A stretch of 64,000 bases of DNA, from the IMG/VR virus record IMGVR_UViG_3300009181_000044, positions 34,858-98,857 of that record; one strand, written 5' to 3'. Shown piece by piece: positions 48,066-52,603 of the stretch. The notes beneath the pieces were generated by a model. That model did no database searches. It was not told where the DNA came from and saw only the letters and a program-made list of their open reading frames with translations. The first letter of the stretch is position 1. Every line of letters starts with the position of its first letter. This stretch comes from a virus. The position numbers and the translations under genes were made by a program.

Positions 48066-48662
48066 CTAAGAAGCATTTGTAGACAGGTCTGGCAATTTTT
48101 CTTTGCGTGATTCAATCAATTTGTTGATACGCTCAAGCACTTGTTCTGAAGTCATCCAAATGTCTTTGTTGTGCAACATAGCTTGGATTTCTTCGGTAGT
48201 TAAAAAATCTTTGTATACTTCGGTTAAGAACTGTTCTGACCAAGCTCGTTCAAACTGAACTTGATCGTACATTTCTCCGCCTTTACCAAATACTCCAGCC
48301 GAATAGTTGTGAAACATAAATAAGCTGTGTGGAGTTATTTCGTAACTGTGTCCTGACAAAAAGATCATGGTTGCAGCACTCATACAAGCACCTTCTACAC
48401 TAGTGGTGATGTGCGCAGCACTTTCACCCATTACGCGTAAGAATTGAATTGCGCTATATAAGTCTCCGCCACAACTGTTGATATGAAACTTAATCTCATC
48501 GTACTGTCGTGCATTGCGGATAATATCAAACCAGCTAGTATAATTTTCCGGCTCTAGTAGTTCTCCAGACAAATAAAACTCGTAAGAATTACTTGTGTTT
48601 TTGGTAAAAAACTCTGTTGACCCCAATTTAGGGTCAAGTAAATCATCTAGGCTATTTGTCAT
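48066..48662 (-). CDS. clpP: ClpP-like serine protease
   Basis: A 198-residue ClpP-fold protease. HINSCGGDLYSAIQFL forms the oxyanion region, EGACMSAATMIF holds the nucleophile Ser aligned with ClpP Ser97, and FMFHNYSAG holds the catalytic His. Length matches ClpP (~190-200). Phage ClpP proteins may mature capsids or work with host ClpX/ClpA. It lies in the tRNA region beside tmRNA, whose ALAA tag is a ClpXP signal; cooperation is an inference. Confidence 0.88.
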   Translation of the reverse strand: MTNSLDDLLDPKLGSTEFFTKNTSNSYEFYLSGELLEPENYTSWFDIIRNARQYDEIKFHINSCGGDLYSAIQFLRVMGESAAHITTSVEGACMSAATMIFLSGHSYEITPHSLFMFHNYSAGVFGKGGEMYDQVQFERAWSEQFLTEVYKDFLTTEEIQAMLHNKDIWMTSEQVLERINKLIESRKEKLPDLSTNAS

Positions 48663-48674
48663 GTTATTTTATAA

Positions 48675-49217
48675 TTAGAAGCTAAACCCTACTCCGAGAC
48701 CATAAGCATTTTCTTGAATATCTTGATAGCTTTTGCTAGCATTTAAGTTTAATACAACGTTCTTAAGAACTGGGTAGCTATACGTACCAAATACAACTGA
48801 TTGTTTAGTTTCAGTTGTAGCAGTTGTGCCTACGCGAGTTTTTACACCAGCTAAAGCAAAACCAGGGCCAACCTTTAAACCAGCAGTTGCACCAACTAAG
48901 CCGTATTTATAGTCTGAGTTACGAGCACCATTAAGCCCATTGTCAAGACCAACACCAACAAAAGGTGTAACGCCAAACATGGATTTACCAGCTGTAACTT
49001 CTAGGCTATGAATCATGCCACCAGTTTCAAATGTGGCTGTACGGCCTTGTGCACCTAACTGAATGCCACTAACTTCTTTACCAGCACGAATATACTGAGC
49101 AGTACTGCGAGCACCAGAAGCCTGATCGTTAACACTATCGATGTCAACGCTAAAATAATCAGCAGCAGATGCCGCACATGATAAAGCAACTAAAGTTGCA
49201 GTTAAGACTTTTTTCAT
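48675..49217 (-). CDS. Outer-membrane beta-barrel protein
   Basis: A 180-residue protein with a Sec signal peptide (MKKVLTATLVALSCAASAA, cut before DYFS), alternating beta strands with Gly/Ala turns, and a C-terminal Phe (GVGFSF) as in outer-membrane beta-signals. The ATG at 49217 with AAGGAA is chosen over an upstream start. Size fits OmpX/Lom-like 8-stranded barrels. A role in superinfection exclusion or receptor masking is inference. Confidence 0.75.
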   Translation of the reverse strand: MKKVLTATLVALSCAASAADYFSVDIDSVNDQASGARSTAQYIRAGKEVSGIQLGAQGRTATFETGGMIHSLEVTAGKSMFGVTPFVGVGLDNGLNGARNSDYKYGLVGATAGLKVGPGFALAGVKTRVGTTATTETKQSVVFGTYSYPVLKNVVLNLNASKSYQDIQENAYGLGVGFSF

Positions 49218-49261
49218 AAAATTCCTTGTTAATGCCAACTTATTCTGTTACGAGGAAAGTT

Positions 49262-49526
49262 GGCGGAAACCCTAAGCAGTGTTTAGGCTGCTAATGCGAA
49301 CTGTGAGTCGTTTGCGTTTACTTTTTGTTTAGTTTTTACAGCTACTCTGCTGAGTTGTCCACTCGTTTACTTGTCGCCCTGTCGAAACTATGCAGGCCCA
49401 TCAAAAGCACATAATCCCCACTAGAGCCCTAAGAGGTTTCTTTCATCTAGGACAACTATGTGCTTATGGTGGACCTGGGGGGATTCGCACCCCCGTCCAA
49501 GACACTTTTCTGTTTGCTTCATACAA
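49262..49526 (-). ncRNA. ssrA: tmRNA, circularly permuted (two-piece)
   Basis: In transcription order the acceptor piece comes first: T-arm GGGGG TGCGAAT CCCCC, then CAGGTCC, A73 and CCA ending at 49467. An intervening segment with a 9-bp stem (TATGTGCTT at 49457 and its complement at 49405) follows. The coding piece starts at 49399 with GGGCCTG, which pairs with CAGGTCC and includes the G3-U70 pair that directs alanine charging. The resume codon GCA is at 49315, and the tag reads ANDSQFALAA, stop at 49283. A GCAG/CTGC helix flanks the stop, as P5 does. The outer ends are approximate. Confidence 0.93.
49283..49315 (-). other. tmRNA tag reading frame (ANDSQFALAA)
   Basis: Eleven codons, GCA AAC GAC ... 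GCC TAA, on the coding piece of the permuted tmRNA. The peptide ends in LAA, the ClpX recognition signal, and begins AND as in most proteobacterial tags. Confidence 0.93.
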
Positions 49527-49643
49527 CCATATTATAACACACTACCCATGCTAGGCTAAGCTAATCCTAGTTACCCGCGGAAGGTGTGCGTACGTTTACT
49601 CCGCATATATGTATTAAGTGGCGAGTAATGTGCTATAATATGG
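49527..49643 (-). ncRNA. Structured leader of the tmRNA precursor
   Basis: Segments 49625-49643 and 49527-49545 pair over 19 bp with two G-U wobbles, enclosing smaller stems (GCGGA/TCCGC at 49577/49600, CTAGG/CCTAG). It starts at the CCA of tRNA-Thr and ends ~28 nt before the tmRNA acceptor piece. It could be the precursor 5' part or a processing element. A shorter version follows tRNA-Lys at 53086-53146. Confidence 0.5.
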
Positions 49644-52528: not shown

Positions 52529-52603
52529 TGGTATCCATGGACAATTCCGAGATGTCGACCTAACGCTTATCAAGCGTTTGCTCTGCCTCTGAGCTACACG
52601 GAT
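52529..52603 (-). tRNA. tRNA-Ile (GAT)
   Basis: Acceptor ATCCGTG/CATGGAT, stem AACGC/GCGTT, loop TTGATAA with anticodon GAT, CCA encoded. The T-arm is degenerate: stem GACAT/TTGTC with loop CTCGGAA. Confidence 0.83.

Follow-up and report, generated by a model that had tools for sequence, protein, structure and literature searches.

The window analysed here, a stretch of 64,000 nucleotides, is part of a virus record of 98,857 bases and carries on its minus strand what an initial annotation had described as a circularly permuted, two-piece tmRNA encoded by a phage. The purpose of phage tmRNAs is debated, with translation maintenance, recycling of host proteins and interference under discussion. 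The locus raises the question whether an intact and working tmRNA gene is present, and what the phage would gain from it.

ARAGORN reported a permuted tmRNA (tmRNA*) at 49192-49559 on the minus strand. The Rfam models tmRNA_permuted (RF04321; 49283-49528, minus strand, 113.2 bits, E = 2.6e-21, curated cut-off 47 bits) and beta_tmRNA (RF01850; 49227-49577, minus strand, 101.1 bits, E = 1.4e-29, curated cut-off 84 bits) both matched above cut-off. The covariance-model run that the initial annotation had suggested as a check thus agrees with its reading of a permuted gene. The conserved extent obtained from ARAGORN, Rfam and the alignment, from 5′ GGUUGU to the 3′ hairpin, is 49234-49528 (minus strand). 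The parts, every one of them on the minus strand, are given in transcription order. First comes the 5′ end of the acceptor piece (49516-49528, RF04321 alignment), starting with GGUUG (49524-49528), which pairs in the RF04321 structure with CAACU (49353-49357) of the mRNA-like piece. It is followed by the T-stem and loop GGGGG UGCGAAU CCCCC (49478-49494; Rfam alignment and pairing in relatives), and by the acceptor 3′ strand CAGGUCC (DNA CAGGTCC, 49471-49477) with the adjoining ACCA (together 49467-49477), the CCA being gene-encoded at 49467-49469. After an intervening segment (49404-49466) come the acceptor 5′ strand GGGCCUG (DNA GGGCCTG, 49393-49399), with its third base in G3-U70, the alanine identity pair of the seven-pair acceptor stem, and the conserved TTTCGACA / UUUCGACA of the tRNA-like domain (49380-49387; sequence and Rfam alignment). 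The tag frame GCAAACGACTCACAGTTCGCATTAGCAGCCTAA (49283-49315; Rfam alignment and sequence) and a terminal 3′ hairpin of 8 bp around UCCUCGUAACAGAAU (49234-49264; sequence and relatives) complete the gene.

The acceptor 3′ strand, CCA and T-arm precede the acceptor 5′ strand, as is characteristic of a permuted gene, and the short tag frame encodes ANDSQFALAA, ending in ALAA-stop. ARAGORN had called an earlier tag start, VKTKQKVNANDSQFALAA; alignment with relatives places the resume codon at GCA. The acceptor strands with G3-U70, the CCA and the tag lie where the initial annotation had placed them. Its base-level positions hold, and only its lower limit of 49262 has to be moved, since the gene reaches the 3′ hairpin. 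The window thus contains, at 49234-49528 on the minus strand, an intact circularly permuted tmRNA gene. A two-piece RNA is the expected product of permuted tmRNA genes, as established for Caulobacter, and the gene order predicts the same mature state here.

The claim that the gene is phage-encoded is borne out by the proteins of the record. They include a split NAD-dependent ligase, a D5-like regulator, a DNA polymerase, a DnaB-like helicase, an SbcC/SbcD-like nuclease and a ribonucleotide reductase; by these matches the record belongs to a T5-like phage, one with a tRNA array. ARAGORN finds 23 tRNAs in this array, and the tmRNA lies inside it; a further tRNA at 52532-52603 (minus strand, Rfam 47.8 bits) was missed by ARAGORN. 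The best-fitting tmRNA subtype is betaproteobacterial. The sole cultured match of the large window protein tested was to a Limnohabitans phage, and Limnohabitans phage DC31 was the closest proteome match; its ClpP is distant (28%), and a search of its genome gave no permuted tmRNA. A freshwater betaproteobacterial host is plausible. An assignment of the host via the tag was discarded: the genome collection gave a single exact match to the tag pattern, a contig of 3 kb (L002, CAIMDH010000093.1) binned into a bacterial metagenome-assembled genome (MAG), which looks misbinned. It carries a permuted tmRNA, an adjoining ClpP and tRNAs, and is probably phage DNA.

Permuted tmRNA genes in phages are already known and are common in aquatic viral contigs, so the initial annotation's view of such a gene as unusual in a phage is not supported. 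Fifty-three two-piece tmRNAs have been reported among 133 unique tmRNA structures from 402 tmRNA-bearing phages, nearly all of them aquatic (PMC9004378). At viral loci chosen by two short tmRNA patterns, 115 of 141 ARAGORN tmRNAs were permuted and 26 were one-piece. Cultured phages with a permuted tmRNA comprise Marzo, Mosig, BUCT-ZZ01 (ON615601.1), XacN1 (AP018399.1), which has two copies with identical scores, and Phosso (PV764938.1), which additionally encodes ClpX/ClpA-type proteins, IF-1 and peptide deformylase. The window gene resembles RF01850 and RF04321 in gene order, tRNA-like domain, tag position and terminal 3′ hairpin, and differs in being phage-borne; its intervening segment is longer than in the model, and the cassette within it lies outside the RF01850 consensus. 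As in Melnitz, Mosig and their relatives (PMC9004378), the phage is aquatic and its permuted tmRNA gene is complete. The tmRNA of Melnitz, however, is of the alphaproteobacterial type with a predicted glutamine riboswitch (PMC9004378), whereas that of the window is of the beta type, and in Mosig a late-transcription accessory gene and thyX are found downstream of the tmRNA instead of ClpP. Huge phages likewise carry a viral tmRNA within a translation-support set; these sets contain SmpB, unlike the window phage, in which SmpB was not found, and the main text of that report mentions neither Clp nor protease (PMC7162821).

Approximately 0.5 kb downstream of the tmRNA, on the same strand, a gene for a ClpP-type protease of 198 amino acids is located (48066-48662, minus strand), a neighbour that the initial annotation had not mentioned, nor had it noted the conserved cassette in the intervening segment. 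The protein matched phrog_1827 (E = 1e-61) and PF00574 (peptidase S14, above cut-off), and keeps Ser, His and Asp in the ClpP positions; among phage ClpPs this triad is present in 102/102 (Ser), 102/102 (His) and 100/102 (Asp) sequences. In an AlphaFold model (mean pLDDT 82) it adopts the ClpP fold: all 50 PDB matches listed by Foldseek were ClpP, with a probability of 1.0 and a moderate TM score of about 0.6. Fold and triad are thus as in the family, while the identity to solved ClpPs is only about 20% and the record has no ClpX/ClpA-type gene of its own. An assignment as head-maturation protease was rejected because of the weaker PHROG match (1e-27 versus 1e-61) and the location away from the head genes. 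Between tmRNA and clpP, an ORF (48675-49217, minus strand) starts with an ATG 16 bases past the terminal hairpin; it has an apparent signal peptide, may encode a small outer-membrane protein, and gave no match in Pfam and PHROG searches. Genes for a Gram-negative porin (PF13609) or for comparable small, secreted proteins occupy this place also in L203 (3853-4758), L103, L173, L198 and L064; in L064 a GroES-like co-chaperonin (PF00166; 5576-5839, reverse complement) between tmRNA and clpP makes up a small proteostasis island. SmpB was found in none of 36 phage records searched, including the 98.9 kb window record, and an AAA_2 (ClpX/ClpA-type) protein was absent from 39 of 40 records, that of the window included, the exception being the jumbo phage Phosso. 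Therefore, outside Phosso, tmRNA and ClpP would have to use host partners.

Among the best 80 ClpP relatives in IMG/VR, 43 loci had a permuted tmRNA, 38 by ARAGORN and five by Rfam, one of the latter being partial at a contig end. In all 38 ARAGORN cases the tmRNA was permuted, upstream of clpP and on the same strand. The two ends nearly touch in a T5-like group; in a second group they are 0.5-2.2 kb apart, with a cell-wall hydrolase gene among the small genes in the gap. So that the sample did not depend on ClpP, loci were also picked by tmRNA sequence alone. In this sample, ClpP was found at most 2.5 kb downstream in 12 of 115 permuted loci, always on the same strand (12/12), within 2.5 kb upstream in none, and at none of the 26 one-piece loci. 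The rest of the same DNA predicts 0.46 downstream ClpPs instead of 12 (Poisson, contigs taken as independent). If anything, these figures understate the contrast: of the three background ClpPs, two (L229, L262) are themselves located downstream of a tag match that ARAGORN had missed. The linked loci chosen by tmRNA include three ClpP subfamilies, and overall the linkage spans several subfamilies and phage types. This recurrent pairing of a permuted tmRNA with a phage clpP appears to be new.

The pairing suggests that the tagging RNA and the phage ClpP form one viral tag-and-degrade unit together with host ClpX/ClpA, a reading of the gene arrangement to which we assign slightly less than an even chance. 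Its main competitor, only a little less probable, is that the tmRNA is one more translation-support gene of the tRNA array and ClpP an unrelated neighbour in the same variable early region. This would fit with the tRNA array enclosing both genes, and with the porin, GroES-like or hydrolase genes that separate them in other phages. Moreover, the linkage may partly reflect a common neighbourhood, because related ClpPs adjoin tRNA arrays with no detected tmRNA (L131-L134, L136-L139). Cultured phages offer a mixed picture: AAS21 and RAS14 have ClpP and gave no permuted tmRNA, and XacN1, BUCT-ZZ01 and Phosso carry both genes far apart. An unrelated neighbour, however, does not readily account for an order and orientation that were constant in all cases found, across ClpP subfamilies, nor for the excess over expectation. 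By the ClpP tree, the label "tmRNA nearby" must have changed seven times or more, so the pairing is not a single frozen arrangement inherited from an ancestor.

In textbook tmRNA processing the intervening segment is discarded. In the window this segment (49404-49466, minus strand) holds a structured cassette, M1 (92.8 bits with covariance model R1), common to 40-odd other phage contigs; carriers besides the window are L007, L129, L155, L268, L308 and L317-L357. Wherever context suffices, M1 lies in the intervening segment of permuted tmRNA genes. The few exceptions (T5-like L160, L164, L165 and duplicates) have it between the CCA of the preceding tRNA and the tmRNA 5′ start, and their tmRNA itself has a different intervening segment. 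M1 thus always has a CCA end on one side and, on the other, the point where the next RNA piece begins. Measured only outside the exact search pattern, since the pattern forces identity of the core, its mean identity was 89% versus 64-72% for the mature tmRNA pieces, and exceeded theirs in 494 of 496 pairwise comparisons. Its fold comprises 22 base pairs, 99.4% formed, eight of them changed on both sides; none of 500 shuffles was equally good. Compensatory changes occur in the closing stem and one core pair, the core being otherwise unchanged. Besides tmRNA, the Rfam search of M1 returned only miRNA models far below their cut-offs. The segment 49404-49466 is thus a covarying RNA outside Rfam that is more conserved than the mature tmRNA, and it appears to be new.

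Several identities proposed for M1 were discarded: a known riboswitch or ribozyme (no Rfam match, neither for M1 nor for M2, described below), a hammerhead (by-eye comparison of the cores shows an additional base and an interruption in stem III), and a coding sequence (a stop codon appears and disappears at a variable K position). Searches of plasmids gave no M1; among cultured phages, Mosig alone showed a short, partial similarity, which the covariance model did not score as significant. The order of the L002 MAG, with genomes of 0.4-1.0 Mb that are probably the wrong hosts, gave no match. A second cassette, M2 (UAGGGUGAUAUGUAAG..GAGGAYUGGAAUUCCCGACCU), unrelated to M1, takes the same position in other phage permuted tmRNA genes (L099, L110, L130, L143, L298, L358-L385), the phages differing in ClpP type, and behaves like M1. 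Clustering the cassettes of 176 permuted tmRNAs gave clusters of 34, 23, 4, 4 and 3 members and 14 pairs; the two large clusters are inflated by pattern scans, the remaining ones are not. In nearly all clusters the cassette is more alike than the surrounding tmRNA. Since a neutral discarded spacer would be expected to diverge no more slowly than a working RNA, the cassettes are constrained or swapped as units, possibly both.

The intervening segment is most likely, though at no better than about even odds, a processing or regulatory element acting on the precursor; such a role is favoured by the location of the cassette between RNA ends. A less probable account, which we nevertheless take seriously, is that M1 has no function of its own and is conserved only via recombination at conserved flanks or as a mobile hairpin. 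Indeed, tmRNAs that are about 70% alike elsewhere do share cassettes, and many other tmRNAs have unrelated intervening segments. Recombination, on the other hand, does not readily explain the compensatory changes in closing stem and core pair around an unchanged core. Nor does it sit well with the divergent copies L129 and L268 found by the covariance model, in which the core strands GUCYUAGAURAAAGAAACC and GGGCUCUARYGKGG are kept and the apical loop differs. The exact-pattern copies in IMG/VR speak against a mobile palindromic repeat: where context is present, each is inside a permuted tmRNA gene or directly adjoins one, and none is away from them, although divergent copies may occur elsewhere.

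To assess selection on the tmRNA itself, 45 different phage tmRNAs were aligned. The acceptor stem forms 312 of 315 standard pairs (99%), with covarying C-G, G-C, A-U and U-A pairs, G3-U70 is invariant (45/45), and the T-stem is paired at 225/225 positions, again with covariation. When the acceptor partners were slid as a control, pairing dropped to 36-62%. A terminal hairpin is present in 41 of 45, with 23 different stems and a loop that is nearly always UCCUCGUAACAGAAU. Stem pairing, covariation and the invariant G3-U70 indicate that selection acts on the RNA, and the model E-values together with the covarying stems versus the slid controls argue against a chance resemblance. The permuted tmRNA gene of this T5-like phage, which is of the betaproteobacterial type and would yield a two-piece RNA, is therefore probably functional. 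That it acts as a decoy or inhibitor of host trans-translation, comparable to the tag-less tmRNA-like RNA of phage DS6A that inhibits host tmRNA (PMC11915505), is improbable: a decoy would need no tag, and here nothing is missing from the tag frame, its resume region or its stop, while the tags of relatives are varied yet ALAA-like. A passively decaying remnant captured from a host, for which the moderate beta-type score (101 bits versus 157 in some phage relatives) might speak, is most improbable, since all functional elements are intact and, from phage to phage, changes in the acceptor, the T-stem and the terminal hairpin are compensated.

With a functional tmRNA, the following course of events may be proposed. 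The tmRNA would be transcribed together with the tRNA array, and host tRNA-processing enzymes would cut the precursor into two pieces. Once the host AlaRS had charged it with alanine, the RNA would work together with host SmpB during infection to rescue ribosomes that have stalled on broken mRNAs, and ANDSQFALAA would be added in the process. The tagged fragments could then be passed to proteases including the phage's own ClpP, docked on host ClpX or ClpA, the host partner being assumed. A wider proposal combines a tmRNA-ClpP unit working on host SmpB and ClpX with an intervening segment that acts as an RNA in its own right, whether as processing element, self-cleaving ribozyme or aptamer, the cassettes being exchangeable among phage tmRNA genes; it is put forward tentatively, being less likely than not.

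If functional, the conserved cassette would give, within the literature searched, the first indication that the piece discarded from a split tmRNA precursor has a role; for tests of M1, a covariance model, the consensus strands and dozens of naturally occurring variants are available. For the purpose of phage tmRNAs, the repeated tmRNA-ClpP pairing suggests a testable answer, namely that the phage contributes the protease chamber as well as the tag for degradation.
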